Under the pieces are notes generated by a model. That model was given only the letters and a program-made list of their open reading frames with translations. It did no database searches and was not told the DNA's origin. A stretch of DNA of 64,000 nucleotides from Candidatus Acidiferrum typicum (lineage in GTDB: Bacteria > Acidobacteriota > Terriglobia > Acidiferrales > UBA7541). The stretch is from positions 1 through 64,000 of the forward strand of contig JAOAPV010000005.1 of NCBI GenBank assembly GCA_025463055.1, in the 5' to 3' direction. Position numbers and translations under genes: made by a program. Numbering within the stretch: position 1 is the stretch's first letter; every line of letters begins with the position of its first letter. Positions 26,116-33,991 of the stretch are shown here, one piece after another.

Positions 26116-27843
26116 ATGAAGCGGCTGGATAAATCGCCCACGGGTATCGTGGGCTTCGACGAAGTGACAAATGGTGGAGTGCCCAAGGGGCGTCCCACTA
26201 TCGTGTGCGGCGGTCCCGGTTGCGGGAAAACGATGTTTGCGCTGGAATTTCTGGTGCGCGGAGCGACGGACTTTAATGAACCTGGCGTGCTGATGACCTT
26301 CGAGGAGACTTCGGAGGAGATGAGCAAGAACGTGGCGTCGCTGGGATTCGATTTACAGAAACTGGCGGCCAAAAAGAAATTAGTGCTTGAGTATGTACGC
26401 ATCGAGCCCTCGGAAATACAAGAGACGGGTGAATATGATTTGGAGGGATTGTTCATCCGGATGCAGCACGCGGTGAAGTCCGTTGGCGCGAAACGCGTGG
26501 TGCTGGATACGTTGGAGGCCATTTTTTCCGGCTTCTCGAACACGGGGATGCTGCGCGCGGAGATTCGACGGCTGTTTCGGTGGCTGAAGGATCACGGGTT
26601 GACAACGGTGGTGACGGCGGAGAAGGGCGAAGGGACGCTGACGCGGTATGGCTTGGAAGAATACGTCTCCGATTGCGTGATTTTTCTCGACCACCGGGTA
26701 ACAGATCAGATTTCGACGCGGCGGATGCGGGTGGTGAAATACCGGGGGTCTTCTCACGTTGCGGACGAGGTCCCGTTCCTAATCGATGAGCGCGGTTTCT
26801 CCGTGCTGCCTAGCTCTTCCATGAAATTGAATCACGAGGTTTCGAGCGAGCGGATTTCGTCGGGCGTCAAAGATTTGGACGAAATGCTGGAGGGGAAGGG
26901 ATTCTACCGGGGATCTTCGATCCTGATTTCGGGGACGGCGGGCACAGGAAAGTCCAGCATGGCAGCCCATTTTGCGCAGGAGACCTGCCGGAATGGCGAA
27001 CGATGTTTGTACATTGCGCTGGAAGAGTCTCCGGCGCAAGCGATGCGCAACATGCGGTCTATCGGCGTCGATCTGGAAAAGCACGTGAGAAAGGGTTTAA
27101 TGCGGTTTGAAGCGTGGAGGCCAACGCAAAGCGGTTTGGAAATGCACTTGCTCCAAATTCATAAACTGGTGGAGCAGCACAAGCCATCGACGGTGATAAT
27201 CGATCCACTGACGAGTTTAATGACGGGCGGCAGGGATCAACTGCACTCCATGCTGATGCGGCTAATCGATTACCTGAAGATGCAGCAGATCACGGGCTTT
27301 TTTACGGCGCTGACGACCGGGCGAAACAAGGAAATCGAGGAGACCGACGTGGGCATCTCTTCGCTGATCGACACATGGATTTTCGCGCGGGATGTGGAGC
27401 TAAACGGCGAGAGGAATCGATGCCTGCATGTGCTGAAGTCACGTGGAATGGCGAATTCGAATCAGATACGCGAGTTTGTAATGTCCAAGGAAGGGATACA
27501 TCTGCTCCCAGTATACGTGGGTAACGGTACGATGCTGACCGGCTCGGCGAGGATCTCGCAGGAGGCACGCGAGAGGGCGGAGAACCTGCAACGTCAGCAA
27601 ACGGCGGAGGAGCAGCAGCGCGTCTTGAGTGGCAAACGGAAGGCACTCGAGGCGCAGATCGCGGCGTTGCGATTGGAATATGCACAGGAAGAAACGCGAG
27701 CGACGCTGGTGAAACAGCAGGACGCGCGGAGGGAACGCGAGCTGTCTGAAGACATGCTGCAAATGGAGAGTTTTCGAAGCGGAGCGCGCCGGGGAAAAAT
27801 AGGAGGCAGAAACGGGAAAGTGGAGGTTGAGCATGGGAGCTAG
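26116..27843 (+). CDS. kaiC: KaiC-like double-domain RecA-type ATPase/kinase
   Basis: The product has 575 residues with two KaiC domains in tandem. CI: P-loop GGPGCGKT (32-39), Walker-B-adjacent acidic pair E63-E64 in [24 protein letters not shown]-loop GTAGTGKS (273-280), E303-E304 in YIALEESP. The segment GISSLIDTW (413-421) aligns with the Synechococcus autophosphorylation segment HISTITDT, so S415-S416 stand where Ser431-Thr432 do. The C-terminus (about 490-545) is a predicted coiled coil rich in E/Q/R, not the short KaiA-binding tail of cyanobacterial KaiC. It heads a kaiC-kaiB-kaiB-kinase operon; no kaiA is seen. Confidence 0.93.
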
Positions 27844-28171
27844 GACGGGCGTAAAGTCGAAAAAGCCGAGTGCAAATGGCAATGGGCGGTTCTTAGAGCT
27901 GCGACTCTACGTGGCGGGGCAGTCGCCAAAATCACTTGTGGCTCTGGCGAACCTGAAGAAGTTTTGCGCAGAGCACTTGGACGGGCAATACGAGTTGCAA
28001 GTAATCGACCTGGTGAAGACACCGCAATTGGCGCAGAACGACCAAATCCTGGCGATTCCGACTCTTGTGCGGAAATTGCCCGTGCCAATTCGGAAGATTA
28101 TCGGCGATCTGTCGGACACCACCCGCGTGCTGGTAGGACTGGATCTAAGGGACAAAGCGGGTGCAGAGTGA
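27833..28171 (+). CDS. kaiB: KaiB-family protein, copy 1
   Basis: The product has 112 residues. After a basic 18-residue N-terminus it has the KaiB thioredoxin-like core: [57 protein letters not shown] and RVLVGLDL. This is close to cyanobacterial KaiB across its length. KaiB binds the KaiC CI ring after fold switching and recruits output kinases. The ATG at 27833 follows GGAGG and overlaps the kaiC stop by 11 bases. It is followed by a second, divergent kaiB. Confidence 0.93.
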
Positions 28172-28518
28172 AGCGGACCAAAGACGCAGCGGGCAATAGC
28201 GGCAAGGAATCCGCGAAGAACCATAATGGCAAAGAATCCGGAAGGAAGAAGTATCTTCTGCGACTGTATGTGACGGGCCAGACTCCCCGCTCCGTAAAGT
28301 CCGTAGAAAATCTCAAACGCTTTTGCGAACAACACCTCAAGGGCCAATACGATATGGAAGTAATTGACATTTATCAGCAGCCGGCCTTGGCTTCTGAAAA
28401 TCAAATCATCGCGGCGCCGACGCTGATCAAGAGCTTGCCATTGCCGCTGCGGCGGCTGGTGGGGGACTTTTCGAATGCAGATCGGGTGTTGGTAGGCCTG
28501 GATCTGAAAATTGCTTAG
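28168..28518 (+). CDS. kaiB: KaiB-family protein, copy 2
   Basis: The product has 116 residues from a GTG start that overlaps the first kaiB stop by four bases (GTGA). A Lys/Asn/Gly-rich N-terminus of about 28 residues precedes the KaiB core: [57 protein letters not shown] and RVLVGLDL. It is clearly a duplicate of the preceding gene but has diverged (for example [11 protein letters not shown] against [11 protein letters not shown]), so the two may have different partners. An in-frame extension to 27964 lies within the first kaiB and is not used. Confidence 0.92.
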
Positions 28519-28529
28519 GGGTGGGAGCA

Positions 28530-30209
28530 GTGAATAAGCTAAAGAGAACTAGTTCTTCAACTGCGAACGAGGAGTTGAGGGCGCGAGTGCAGGAGCTCGA
28601 GGAAACGCTGCGTGCCATCCGCATGGGCGAGGTGGATGCGGTGCTAGTGTCTGGCGCGCAAGGGGATCAGGTGTTTACCTTGCAGGGCGCGGAACATCCG
28701 TACCGGCTGCTGGTGGAGACTATTGATGAAGGCGCGGCCACGCTTTCCGATGATGGCACGGTGCTGTATTCGAACAAGAGCTTCGCGGCGTTTTTCGGAG
28801 TGCCGCTCGAGAAATTCATCGGAGCGCCGCTGCACAATTTCGTTACCGGGAATGACGCCGAATTTTTGAAAACGCTGATTCTGGGAGCCAGGCTGGCCAG
28901 CACGCGCGGCGAAATCCGGCTACAGAGAAAGCACGGGAAACCCCGGACCATCCGCTTAACGCTGAGCCCCAACCACGAACTGGGCCTGGAAGCGATTTGC
29001 GCGGTGGCTACGGAGCTTACGGAGATTGTGGACGCCAACGAGGCACTGCGGGTAACGGAGACGTCGCTGCGGCAATTATCCGCGCGGCTGTTGCAGCTGC
29101 AGGACGAAGAGCGCCGGCGGATCGCGCGCGACCTACACGACGTGACAGGACAGAAGATAGCGGTGCTATCCATGTCGCTGGACCGTTTGGCGAGGCTGAC
29201 GGAGCAGCGCAAACCGGAAGCCAAGGAGTCCGTCAAGGAGAGCCGGGAAATTGTCGGCCAAATTGGCGAGGAAATCCGGACGCTGTCTTACCTTTTACAT
29301 CCACCGTTGCTGGATGAGTGCGGGTTGGCGTCGGCCGTGCATTGGTACGCGGAGGGTTTCGAGAAGCGCAGCGGCATCAAGCTCGAAGTAAGCATCGGGG
29401 ACGACATCCCCCGCCTTCCCATCGATGCGGAAACGACGCTGTTTCGCGTGGTGCAGGAAAGCTTGACGAACGTGCATCGGTACTCCGGTAGTTCGTCGGC
29501 AAAGATCAAGATCTCGAAGGACGCGAAAGAAGTGCGGCTCGAAATTATTGATTACGGCCGCGGGAACAAATCCGGAACGGCGAGGGCAGGGCTGGACGGC
29601 CCGGCGCCGCTTGGAGTGGGCATTCCCGGAATGCGCGAGCGCCTGCACCAATTGGGCGGCGAACTGACCGTTGATTTTGCGACCACCGGGACGCGTGTAA
29701 CGGCGACGCTGCCGGTCAAGAAGGCGGCACAAGAGGATTCTGAAGAAAACATCGACCAAACATCGCTGACTTTTGCGATTCGTTCCGCCGAGGATGCGCG
29801 CCGACGGATTCTGATTGCGGACGATCACGAATTGATGCGGCGCGGGCTGCGGGGACTGCTGGAAAGTCATGATGAATGGGCGGTGTGCGGCGAGGCAGTC
29901 GAAGGAACGGAAGCGGTGCGAAAGAGCACGGACCTTAAACCAGATTTGGTGATAATGGACGTGAATCTGCCGGGGCTTAGCGGGATTGAAGCGGCGCTGC
30001 AAATTCGGCGGGAACGCGAAGCGGCGAAGGTATTGTTCTTCACCGTGCATGATTCCGACGAAGTGATACGCGAGATTGTGGAAGCTGGGGCGTCGGGGTA
30101 TGTGGCGAAGTCGCGAGCGAGTCAGGACTTGGTCGATGCAGTGCGCCTTGTGTTGAGCGGCAAGACGTTTTTCCCGAATCTGGTGGCAGCAGCGGCCGGG
30201 CGGAGATAG
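28530..30209 (+). CDS. Hybrid sensor histidine kinase (PAS-HisKA_3-HATPase-receiver)
   Basis: The product has 559 residues from GTG 28530 (AGGGG upstream; GTG 28521 is an alternative). Domains: a short helix (15-32), a PAS domain (about 55-165, DEGAATLSDDGTVLYSNKSF), the NarX-type dimerisation helix with EERRRIARDLHDVTGQ (phospho-acceptor H203), a HATPase with N-box ESLTNVHRYS and G-box GVGIPGMRERL, and a C-terminal receiver (about 426-550) with DDH, D477 in VIMDVNLPG and VAKSRAS. There is no transmembrane segment, so it is cytoplasmic. Following kaiC-kaiB-kaiB by 11 bases, it is the likely output kinase, analogous to SasA, but with its own receiver and no DNA-binding domain. Confidence 0.93.
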   Translation: MNKLKRTSSSTANEELRARVQELEETLRAIRMGEVDAVLVSGAQGDQVFTLQGAEHPYRLLVETIDEGAATLSDDGTVLYSNKSFAAFFGVPLEKFIGAPLHNFVTGNDAEFLKTLILGARLASTRGEIRLQRKHGKPRTIRLTLSPNHELGLEAICAVATELTEIVDANEALRVTETSLRQLSARLLQLQDEERRRIARDLHDVTGQKIAVLSMSLDRLARLTEQRKPEAKESVKESREIVGQIGEEIRTLSYLLHPPLLDECGLASAVHWYAEGFEKRSGIKLEVSIGDDIPRLPIDAETTLFRVVQESLTNVHRYSGSSSAKIKISKDAKEVRLEIIDYGRGNKSGTARAGLDGPAPLGVGIPGMRERLHQLGGELTVDFATTGTRVTATLPVKKAAQEDSEENIDQTSLTFAIRSAEDARRRILIADDHELMRRGLRGLLESHDEWAVCGEAVEGTEAVRKSTDLKPDLVIMDVNLPGLSGIEAALQIRREREAAKVLFFTVHDSDEVIREIVEAGASGYVAKSRASQDLVDAVRLVLSGKTFFPNLVAAAAGRR

Positions 30210-30300
30210 GGTCAGTTTTTCCGTCCGGAGTGGTTTAAACCTCGCTGCGAACCCGGCGCGCTTGTCTCCCGGCGCGTTCTTCAACGTAAGATTCAAAAAT

Positions 30301-32589
30301 TCAGCGAGAGAGAGTTTCGCTCGACTCGATCCGGTCGGGTGTGTCAATGCGGATATCGGTAAGGTCGGATAACAGGTTGGCAGCCCAACGATAGACGTTG
30401 TGTTCGCGAACAGAGCTACGCATGTGTTGCATGCGGGAAGCTTGCTCGTCGGACGGCATGTTGAGCGCACGATGGATAGAGCCGGCCAGCTGCTGGACGT
30501 CATAGGGGTTGACGAGCAGAGCGTCGGTCAGCTCCAGAGCCGCACCTGCGAACGTGCTGAGGATCAGGACGCCGAGATTGTCTTCACGAGAGGATACGAA
30601 CTCCTTGGCGACGAGATTCATTCCGTCGTGCAGTGAAGTAACCATACATAGCGACGCGGCGTGATAGAAACGCGCGATTTCCTCGTGCGAATGATGCCGT
30701 TGTAGAAAGAGGATGGGCTTCCAGTGGCCGGCCTGGAAGCGGGCGTTGATGCGCTCGGCGTCGGCCGCCACGTCTGCGAGCAGATTCTGATAGCGCTCGA
30801 TATTGGTGCGGCTGGGGGCGCCAATCTGGATAAAAGTGAAGCGGCGTTGATAGGACGGATAGAGTTCGAAAAAGAGTTCGATGGCGCGGAAGCGCTCGAG
30901 AATGCCTTTGGTGTAATCGACGCGATCGACGCCGACCCCGATAAGTGTCGCGCTGATGCCTAGCTCATTACAAAGCGCGGCGCCCTCTTCCTTCGTGCTG
31001 CGAAGCGGCTTGATCGAATGGCCGTTTTCCTGAAGAGCAACGCTTATGGGGTAAGGGCGTACGCGAGTGACGTGGCCCTGGCGGTTCACGGAGAAGCGGT
31101 CCCATTCCGTGAGGGCTTCGACGGCGCGATCGACCGTGGAAAGAAAATTGTTGCAATGCGACTGAATATGAAAGCCGATGAGATCGGCGCCGAGCAGTCC
31201 GTCGATCAGTTCGCGCTGCCAGGGGCAGATGCCGAAGACTTCGGGATTGGGCCAGGGAATGTGCCAGAAGATCGCGACGCGAGCGTCCGGGCGCGCTTCC
31301 TTGATCATGCGGGGAAGTAATGCGAAATGATAATCCTGGACCAGAACTATGGGTGACTCGGTCCCTTCCATCTCCGCAATCGCTGCATCAGCGAAGCGGC
31401 GATTTACTTCCTGGTAGGCGATCCAGTCCTCAGGACGGAAGATCGGGCGCGTGTGCGCGATGTGGCAGAGCGGCCAAATGCCTTCATTGGCGAAACCTTC
31501 GTAGTAGCCCTTCTCTTCTTCGGCGCTGAGCCATACGCGGCGCAGCGTGTAACTGGGATGGTCGGGAGGAACGCGGAGATGATCCTTGGCGTCGACGACT
31601 TCGCGGTCGGCGTTGCCGGAACCGTGCGCGATCCACGTGCCGTCAGTGGCGAGGAGCACGGGCTCGAGAGCGGTGACTAAGCCGCTGGCGGGAACGATCA
31701 CTTGGACGTTGCCATTGCTGCCGTTGCTGTGGACGTGCATGTACGGCTCGCGGTTGGCGATTACGAAAAGAGGCTTGTTTTGCAATTTGTTGCTGAGGCT
31801 GACGCGCAGGCGTTCGGCGGTCCATAATGAGACGTTAGAATCGCGGAGACGGGCCTCTTCCTCGGCCGTGGCGCGAGCTGCGTTGAGATCGCGCGCAAGA
31901 TGCGTAACTTCGTGGTGGAGCTGATCGAAGAGCTCGCCCTCGGGAAGCGAAGGCGGAGCATGCGATTGGCCGGTGCGCAAAGTGCGCAGCCACTTGGCGG
32001 TGCGGGTGAGCGGACCGGTAAGAGTCCAGCGCACGAGTACCAGCGCGAGACCGGCGATGAACAAGGTTTGCACCAGCGCGTTGACAAGTGAATCGCGCAA
32101 AGTGTGGGCAACCTGGCGGTCGATATAAGTCACGTCGTGGACGAGCGCAAGTGTGCCAACCATTTGGCCGTTGCGGTGAAGCGGCAAAGCGTAAACGTGA
32201 ATAGGCGTGTCGTTGACGCGCAGGAACTCGCCGTAACCAATGTTGCGATCGGCAGCATAAGCGGCAGCGGCGGGCCGAAGTTGGAAGAGCGAAGCGAGGC
32301 CGGAGGTCATTGCAAGGGCGATGCCGTTGGCGTTGTAGATGGCGACGCCTTTCAGGTGCTCGCGCTGGCCGAATCGATCGACGAGGCGTTGCAGGCTTTT
32401 GTCCGGGAGCTGCTTATCAAATTGCGGCTCGACAGTTTCTTGCAGGCTTTCCGCGAGAATTTCCGCGCGGCGAGAGATGTCATTGCGCAAAATGCGGCGT
32501 TCGGTACGGACCTGATAAGCGGCGAAAAGCAGAGACACTACAACCACGCTAATAATGAGAGGCAAAATGAGTTTCAGGGTCGTGCGCAT
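30301..32589 (-). CDS. otsA: Membrane-anchored sensor fused to trehalose-6-phosphate synthase
   Basis: The product has 762 residues. The N-terminus is built like a sensor: TM1 (LILPLIISVVVVSLLFAAY, about 6-26), a periplasmic domain of about 140 residues, TM2 (ALVQTLFIAGLALVLV, about 175-190) and a HAMP-like helical region (190-255). A full GT20 domain follows (about 275-750): LVQDYHFALLPRMI, FWHIPWPNPEVFGICPW, VGVDRVDYTKGILERF and SLHDGMNLVAKEFVSSRED, with the sugar-nucleotide-binding residues of OtsA. It should make trehalose-6-phosphate from UDP-glucose and glucose-6-phosphate at the inner membrane. No otsB phosphatase is adjacent. GGGGAAG precedes the chosen ATG. Confidence 0.9.
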   Translation of the reverse strand: MRTTLKLILPLIISVVVVSLLFAAYQVRTERRILRNDISRRAEILAESLQETVEPQFDKQLPDKSLQRLVDRFGQREHLKGVAIYNANGIALAMTSGLASLFQLRPAAAAYAADRNIGYGEFLRVNDTPIHVYALPLHRNGQMVGTLALVHDVTYIDRQVAHTLRDSLVNALVQTLFIAGLALVLVRWTLTGPLTRTAKWLRTLRTGQSHAPPSLPEGELFDQLHHEVTHLARDLNAARATAEEEARLRDSNVSLWTAERLRVSLSNKLQNKPLFVIANREPYMHVHSNGSNGNVQVIVPASGLVTALEPVLLATDGTWIAHGSGNADREVVDAKDHLRVPPDHPSYTLRRVWLSAEEEKGYYEGFANEGIWPLCHIAHTRPIFRPEDWIAYQEVNRRFADAAIAEMEGTESPIVLVQDYHFALLPRMIKEARPDARVAIFWHIPWPNPEVFGICPWQRELIDGLLGADLIGFHIQSHCNNFLSTVDRAVEALTEWDRFSVNRQGHVTRVRPYPISVALQENGHSIKPLRSTKEEGAALCNELGISATLIGVGVDRVDYTKGILERFRAIELFFELYPSYQRRFTFIQIGAPSRTNIERYQNLLADVAADAERINARFQAGHWKPILFLQRHHSHEEIARFYHAASLCMVTSLHDGMNLVAKEFVSSREDNLGVLILSTFAGAALELTDALLVNPYDVQQLAGSIHRALNMPSDEQASRMQHMRSSVREHNVYRWAANLLSDLTDIRIDTPDRIESSETLSR

Positions 32590-32669
32590 TGCAAACTTCC
32601 CCTTGGGCAAGAGCGAAGATTTGTTTCGGATTCGTGAGGGTGCCGAATCCGCTGGGCGAATGGCGCCCG

Positions 32670-33035
32670 TTATAGTATTGAATTCGTCGGCTGCACGACT
32701 ACGTGGAGAGCAATATTGTTTCCGTCGTCAGTTCGATAATCCACTGTGGCCGTGGAACCAACTTCCAGTCGTCCCTCGACTTTGGTCGTGTCGTCGATCA
32801 GGAATTGGAGCGTGACCAAGCCCTGACTTTTCTTTACGTCGACGGAAAAGGAAGCGTCTCCGATGGCTGAGATTTTTCCGGAAACTGAACCGTGCTCGGA
32901 AGCTTCCTTCGACTTGAACAAATTGCTATGCGGCTGAGAGGCTAGCGCGTCGGACGAAATCGCGACACATAAGCATGCCACAAATATGGTAAGAATGAAC
33001 AGAGTAACTAGAGTCAGGATAGCGCGGAAGCGCAT
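32670..33035 (-). CDS. Exported DUF5666-like small beta protein
   Basis: The product has 121 residues. The ATG at 33035 has a strong GGAGGGAAG upstream. A hydrophobic signal (AILTLVTLFILTIFVACLCV) is followed by an OB/beta-type domain: GSVSGKISAIGDASFSVDVK, LVTLQFLIDDTTKVEGRLE, VGSTATVDYRTDDGNNIALH. This matches the pattern of DUF5666-like proteins of unknown function. A much longer open frame upstream to 33524 overlaps the next gene antisense-like and is not used. Confidence 0.78.
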   Translation of the reverse strand: MRFRAILTLVTLFILTIFVACLCVAISSDALASQPHSNLFKSKEASEHGSVSGKISAIGDASFSVDVKKSQGLVTLQFLIDDTTKVEGRLEVGSTATVDYRTDDGNNIALHVVVQPTNSIL

Positions 33036-33208
33036 TGTTACTTCCCTCCAGATCACTTCCGGCTGGTGACAATATGGATGGCACGAGGACTTCCAAAGTC
33101 GCCTGACTACAAATGTTTGTGTAAGCGAAATAAAACACGAGATATACAAGGAGAGGTGTCCCGGTATTTGGTCAGGGCACGTACTAGGACTATGAAAATT
33201 TTCCCCGA

Positions 33209-33991
33209 CTAGCGCTGGGCGACAAGGAATAGGCGGCGGAACGGAAATAGCGTCTGGCCATTGTGCTGAGCAGGGTAAGCGGCGGCCATACGGTCGGCGA
33301 AAGCGTCGATAAATTTTGTGGCTTCGGGTTCGGGAAGAGCAGAGAGAAAAGGGCGCAGGGCCGTGCCGCGCATGAAGTTGACCACGGGGTCTTTGCCGTC
33401 CAGCACCTGCAAGTAGATGGTCTCCCAGATATCGAGATTGCGAGCATGGGGTGAGAGCCAGCGCCAATACGTCTCGGGTGCGGGAATAGGCGCGAGAAGG
33501 AGCGGTTCCAGCTTGGCGCGCCATTCACTTTGCAAGACCAACTCTTTCAGGCCCAGGTGTGAAGGCGACTCAAAGTGCCGCGGGACTTGCATTGCCAGGA
33601 CGCCGCCGGGCCGCACCTTATTCAGTAGTGAAGGCAGCAAGCTCTCGTGCTCAGGAACCCACTGCAGGGCGGCGTTGCTGTAAATGAGATCGGGAGGAGC
33701 GGGAGGGCTCCACGAGGTAATCTCGGCGTGCCGCCATTCAAGCGCGGGGAACTCGCGGCGAGCCTCACCGAGCATTTCGGGGGAGGAATCGATGCCGACG
33801 ACTTTGGAATTGGCAAAGGTATCGGCGAGGGTGCGGGTCAGGTGGCCGGTGCCGCTGCCGAGATCATAGATTGTCGAGTATTCAAGCTTGGGGATGCGCG
33901 CGATGAGATCGAGGCCGGCGCGAAAGCGGATATCGGCGTAGCGAAGGTAAGTTTGCGGCTCCCAAATAGTCACAGCGGTCACGCAAATCAT
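33209..33991 (-). CDS. tam: Trans-aconitate 2-methyltransferase-like SAM enzyme
   Basis: The product is 260 residues. The family signature is nearly complete: TIWEPQTYLRYADIRFRAGL at the N-terminus, the SAM motif IYDLGSGTGHLTRTL, VVGIDSSPEML, DLIYSNAALQWVPEH and AMQVPRHFESPSH. Tam methylates trans-aconitate, an inhibitor of aconitase. The start may be ATG 33991 or GTG 33973; the latter would begin at VTIWEP, closer to known proteins. The substrate is by family only. Confidence 0.88.
   Translation of the reverse strand: MICVTAVTIWEPQTYLRYADIRFRAGLDLIARIPKLEYSTIYDLGSGTGHLTRTLADTFANSKVVGIDSSPEMLGEARREFPALEWRHAEITSWSPPAPPDLIYSNAALQWVPEHESLLPSLLNKVRPGGVLAMQVPRHFESPSHLGLKELVLQSEWRAKLEPLLLAPIPAPETYWRWLSPHARNLDIWETIYLQVLDGKDPVVNFMRGTALRPFLSALPEPEATKFIDAFADRMAAAYPAQHNGQTLFPFRRLFLVAQR

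Follow-up and report, generated by a model that had tools for sequence, protein, structure and literature searches.

A T6P synthase fused to a predicted transmembrane Cache/PDC-HAMP receptor module in Candidatus Acidiferrum typicum and other Acidobacteriota

The only GT20 gene of Candidatus Acidiferrum typicum (5.33 Mb assembly, 98.9% complete) encodes a trehalose-6-phosphate (T6P) synthase joined in one open frame to a receptor module of the histidine kinase type. The protein is probably a one-piece transmembrane receptor with T6P synthesis as its output, ancestrally in the service of stress-regulated trehalose production. Its domain order from the N- to the C-terminus is TM1, a periplasmic Cache/PDC domain, TM2, a diverged HAMP, a helix with a conserved W256-T257 pair and a complete GT20 synthase. 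The gene lies in a 64,000-nucleotide stretch of DNA, hereafter the window, in which the following features were delimited:

30301..32589 (-), sensor-fused T6P synthase gene, open frame of 762 aa
32509..32571 (-), TM1, residues 7-27 (hydropathy peak 2.69; positive N-terminus; model helix 2-58)
32086..32508 (-), periplasmic Cache/PDC-type sensor, residues 28-168, ~140 residues (fold match to WalK; Pfam matches of relatives)
32026..32085 (-), TM2, residues 169-188 (hydropathy peak 2.33)
31840..32022 (-), diverged HAMP, residues 190-250 (profile-profile match, helix-connector-helix model, dN/dS)
31783..31824 (-), linker helix, residues 256-269 (alignment; model helix 258-268)
30358..31767 (-), GT20 T6P synthase catalytic domain, residues 275-744 (PF00982)
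32670..33035 (-), small secreted DUF5666-like protein with a hydrophobic N-terminus, directly upstream, possible operon partner

The 762-residue protein begins with MRTTLKLILP, and the ribosome-binding sequence AAGGGGAAG upstream of the ATG was rated good. The number of promoter and terminator sites found in a scan of positions 30000-33300 was not above that in shuffled sequences.

The catalytic half was matched by PF00982 with 390 bits over residues 275-744, which covers profile positions 4-472 of 473. The OtsA model TIGR02400 scored 423 bits, short of its cut-off of 565, and the protein is thus a member of the GT20 family that falls outside the narrow OtsA equivalog; the GgpS model TIGR02398 scored 314 bits, ~110 below the OtsA model. 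The donor- and acceptor-binding residues of M. thermoresistibile OtsA (R18, Y90, D144, R286, K291, R324, D385, and E393; PMC6879718) have as their counterparts R280, Y363, D419, R556, K561, R594, D655, and E663, as judged from an alignment with 5jij and, for the C-terminal lobe, from exact spacing, and these are invariant in 29 sequences. The full-length domain and the intact substrate residues agree with the activity predicted in the initial annotation, and the product is most likely T6P.

The same annotation had proposed two transmembrane spans around a periplasmic domain of roughly 140 residues, and hydropathy indeed delimits spans at about residues 7-27 and 168-188. Two K/R and no D/E are found at the N-terminus, and four K/R and no D/E after TM2; these positive charges place the enzyme in the cytoplasm and not outside it. 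Structure prediction of the periplasmic domain (AlphaFold on residues 1-275, monomer models from an alignment of six sequences, pLDDT about 78) gave a PAS-like sheet with a long N-terminal helix, as expected of the Cache/PDC fold. Its best PDB match was the extracellular domain of WalK (4ywz; Z 15.0, rmsd 2.5, 137 aligned residues), followed by the sensor domains of DctB, CitA (8biy, Z 13.3), and DcuS (3by8, Z 11.8), and the integrative model of full-length WalK could be superposed on residues 1-256 (Z 16.4, rmsd 3.4, 249 aligned). NCBIfam WalK matched partially over residues 5-251. No Pfam Cache family matched the window protein, and sCache_3_2 matched four out of 29 relatives. The sequence of the sensor domain is variable, with no recognizable ligand-binding motif.

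Pfam HAMP (PF00672) gave no match in any of the 29 members at E 0.01, and HAMP membership is therefore argued from profile-profile homology. A search of the phylum with the whole protein returned some frames matching at only about residues 1-280; Pfam identified HAMP, HisKA, and HATPase_c in the three of these that were scanned, all of them histidine kinases. When the N-termini of the 29 synthases were aligned profile to profile with four such proteins, the match was unbroken over residues 1-248 (E 1.2e-28), the TM2 and HAMP stretch gave E 2e-10, and residues 190-250 alone aligned with the kinase HAMP by hhalign at E 1.7e-6 (reversed, 0.55), while reversed and column-shuffled controls of these alignments scored 0.05 or worse. 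In the AlphaFold model TM2 runs into the first HAMP helix (154-206), followed by a connector and a second helix (222-250), and this helix-connector-helix arrangement was modeled, as a monomer, at pLDDT 65-75. Pfam finds neither HisKA nor HATPase_c in the window protein; GT20 stands in their place. The end-to-end kinase alignment, the controls, and the structural match to WalK identify the sensor half as a receptor module of the kinase type whose HAMP has diverged, and this bears out both the HAMP-like region after TM2 and the histidine kinase-like N-terminus of the initial annotation. All 29 sensor forms share W256, T257, and L261 of the linker helix. A similar W or WT occurs at this position in several soluble relatives without a sensor (seen in L029, L070, L075, L076, and L078), and the helix is thus probably part of the catalytic unit; it is also the likely coupling point between HAMP and enzyme.

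According to the receptor model, the periplasmic Cache/PDC domain would sense an envelope or solute signal, the conformational change would cross the inner membrane through TM2 and a HAMP presumably working as a dimer, and the W256-T257 helix would couple HAMP movement to the cytoplasmic GT20 enzyme, which would convert NDP-glucose and glucose-6-phosphate to T6P in a signal-dependent manner. In the ancestral state a neighboring OtsB would turn T6P into trehalose, leaving stress-regulated trehalose synthesis under the receptor's control. Most carriers in the genus have lost OtsB, and here T6P may be dephosphorylated by another HAD enzyme or be itself active.

The synthase gene converges, as had been noted, with the histidine kinase-receiver gene at 28521-30209, the end of which is separated from the synthase stop by 91 bases. 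This kinase is the last gene of a Kai-type row at 26116-30209 (+), composed of kaiC, two kaiB, and then the PAS-histidine kinase (HisKA_3) with a C-terminal receiver; no kaiA was seen alongside. A meaningful linkage to kai was rejected: out of 41 neighborhoods only this window has kaiC near the synthase (0/40 related loci), and the arrangement is therefore local. On the other side, homologs of the DUF5666-like protein lie immediately upstream of the sensor-synthase in 12 out of 17 loci of the genus. This protein, whose Pfam DUF5666 score of 22.5 bits is under the cut-off of 27, could serve the sensor as a periplasmic partner.

The initial annotation had pointed to the lack of an adjacent otsB, and the genome-wide search extends this, as PF02358 matches neither next to the gene nor anywhere else in this genome. 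In other families OtsB adjoins the sensor-synthase in about 13 out of 20 loci, while several loci have GH15 trehalases and some have DUF5752-TreT at this place. At the genome level, 28 out of 32 carriers outside the family possess OtsB, versus four out of 32 carriers of the same genus (Fisher p 1.4e-9, a value that ignores shared ancestry). Because OtsB neighbors the gene in most relatives, regulated trehalose synthesis appears to have been its ancestral function. In the same genus the synthase is followed by DUF5752-TreT in 14 out of 17 loci (L100:7960-12233 and 13 others encode sensor-synthase, DUF5752, and a TreT-like trehalose synthase as an operon), and this operon stands where other families have the synthase-OtsB pair. 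OtsB and TreT are both missing from this genome and from G005, G025, G032, and G034, some of these assemblies being incomplete. DUF5752 and TreT were considered as the missing partner here and discarded, both being absent, and the Zn-peptidase downstream of the gene in G025 (L101) proved unrelated. TreS, maltokinase, TreY, and TreZ sit together on contig C24 of this genome, and a GH15 trehalase-like gene is found on contig C104; since the TreYZ and TreS routes are separately encoded, trehalose here need not depend on the synthase.

From the absence of PF02358 one might conclude that T6P processing is impossible here. This was overturned by the HAD-IIB phosphatases which adjoin the sensor-synthase in G453 and G199, both without PF02358 in the genome search, and by a homolog in this genome:

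contig C115, L150:7586-9301 (-), HAD-IIB phosphatase fused to a HerA/DUF87-type ATPase, 572 residues

The HAD part of this protein is 56% identical to the G453 phosphatase beside the synthase, and nearly its whole length is 48% identical to an Aminobacter HAD protein from a synthase-containing plasmid cluster. The neighbors of the C115 gene are not trehalose genes. By homology the protein may be a replacement T6P phosphatase, through which T6P may still be dephosphorylated. In other bacteria, otsB mutants suffer from the toxicity of accumulated T6P (PMC5148154, PMC12125463), which argues for a T6P sink.

Three other explanations have to be weighed against the receptor model. It is unlikely that a retired kinase sensor serves as a membrane anchor only, holding the synthase at the membrane (e.g., near sugar uptake or the envelope) without any switching. 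The periplasmic domain is the most variable part of the protein (61-82% identity to close relatives), the HAMP has diverged from the Pfam model, and the Na+/H+ exchanger-synthase fusions described below show that the enzyme has recurrently been tethered to membranes. Against an idle anchor speak the retention of fold and HAMP register across families and the pattern of selection. In comparison with the closest copy (G034, 87% identity) dN/dS is 0.075 for the whole gene, 0.06 for TM1, 0.114 for the periplasmic domain, 0.049 for TM2 and HAMP, and 0.07 for the enzyme, so that TM2 and HAMP are the most constrained segment and the periplasmic domain is constrained too. These values, which exclude a decaying pseudogene, indicate strong purifying selection on every domain. 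That the enzyme produces another glucoside phosphate, e.g., glucosylglycerol phosphate, is very improbable: such a product would fit the sub-threshold TIGR02400 score and the GgpS match, but the lead of the OtsA model, the invariant glucose-6-phosphate-binding residues, and the relatives' neighbors (OtsB, TreT, or trehalase) all point to T6P.

The third alternative is a sub-case of the receptor model and concerns the fate of the product: T6P would be the signal here, directed at targets that may be hexokinase-like, regulatory, or of other kinds, and its use as a trehalose precursor would be secondary. We consider this unlikely. That OtsB was lost and a constrained synthase retained is a suggestive hint at a signal role, as is a 98.9% complete genome that lacks OtsB, TreT, and DUF5752 and can draw its trehalose from TreYZ and TreS; moreover, T6P regulates in plants and fungi and induces TreR of E. 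coli (PMC12125463). These points are offset by the OtsB of most carriers outside the family, the C115 phosphatase with its homologs adjoining the synthase in G453 and G199, and the toxicity of T6P build-up in otsB mutants, and no T6P receptor has been identified. The full version of this idea is quite unlikely: T6P would be a dedicated second messenger of an Acidobacteriota lineage, made by the Cache-HAMP receptor on an external cue in genomes that have lost OtsB, with bulk trehalose coming from TreYZ and TreS.

The distribution of the fusion was addressed by searching further genomes. The full-length form is present in 32 out of 36 genomes of the genus, with fragments or contig-edge copies in three more, and many further acidobacterial families carry full-length sensor-synthases at 42-60% identity. 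A plasmid collection yielded matches to the catalytic domain only and no full-length sensor form. Spread outside the Acidobacteriota is here represented by one locus, L025:1742-3988 (+), a full-length sensor-synthase of 46% identity on a contig labeled Candidatus Paceibacterota, which may reflect transfer or a misbinned contig. In a maximum-likelihood tree of the GT20 domain 26 out of 29 sensor forms cluster, with a branch support of only 85/61, and the remaining three are intermixed with soluble relatives; this suggests that sensor and soluble forms were interchanged a few times. The existence of soluble, sensor-less relatives (L073-L078) means that the catalytic unit does not in general need a sensor.

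The phylum also contains other synthase fusions. In nine acidobacterial genomes (L063-L069, L071, and L072; e.g., L071:3792-6551, +) a T6P synthase lies behind ten or so membrane spans, and the three that were scanned are Na+/H+ exchangers (PF00999) in one frame with the synthase. The exchanger fusions form a clade apart from the sensor forms in the GT20 tree, and no paper on a Na+/H+ exchanger-T6P synthase fusion was found in the open-access literature searched. L070:5078-7366 (+) encodes a T6P synthase, likewise of 762 aa, whose 280-residue N-terminal part has no membrane span or Pfam match; it groups inside the exchanger-fusion clade.

Cache-HAMP receptors and GT20 synthases are each known, and what is new is their combination. 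Proteobacterial database entries combining HAMP and GT20 exist. Public databases probably contain such fusion proteins without comment; in the open-access literature searched no description of a HAMP-linked T6P synthase was found. In class III adenylate cyclases and diguanylate cyclases an extracytoplasmic sensor and a HAMP drive the catalytic domain directly; the present protein differs from them in that its output is a sugar phosphate of primary metabolism. WalK-type and other sCache/PDC-HAMP kinases share the N-terminal 250 residues (TM1, Cache/PDC fold, TM2, HAMP), and the homologous acidobacterial kinases (L059-L062) have a HisKA-HATPase output where this protein has a glycosyltransferase. 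The OtsA proteins of M. thermoresistibile (5JIJ) and E. coli (1UQT) resemble it in the whole catalytic domain, the substrate residues, and PF00982, but known OtsA proteins are soluble and sensor-less; the regulators of mycobacterial OtsA are cytoplasmic 2-oxoglutarate and 2-phosphoglycerate, without a membrane receptor (PMC6879718). By analogy, the nearest functional counterpart for coupling T6P synthesis to the membrane would be the TPSP-GT-MSC operon of Thermoproteus tenax, in which a synthase-phosphatase fusion is activated by a GT4 partner and a mechanosensitive channel is co-encoded (PMC3634074). As in the acidobacterial system, a T6P synthase is there encoded with a GT4 protein and linked to membrane stress, the same-genus synthase-DUF5752-TreT operon including a GT4-like TreT; in T. 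tenax, however, the membrane sensor is a separate channel, and the enzyme is bifunctional and depends on its partner for activation. The available part of the report on Ramlibacter tataouinensis describes an otsB-GH15 trehalase-TPS cluster (Rta_36480-36500; PMC3164672), the same gene set as in acidobacterial sensor-synthase operons, and that part mentions no sensor domain on the synthase.

Judging by this phylum-wide design, an external signal may be able to switch sugar-phosphate synthesis directly. Soil Acidobacteriota, for which few genetic tools exist, carry the fusion widely. Bacterial receptors usually have kinases, cyclases, or chemotaxis proteins as outputs, and here the receptor chassis bears an enzyme through which glucose-6-phosphate and NDP-glucose are committed to T6P. 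In this way a stress metabolite could be controlled by osmotic or envelope sensing without transcription, and with OtsB lost stepwise while the synthase was kept, the role of T6P itself in bacteria would be directly testable.
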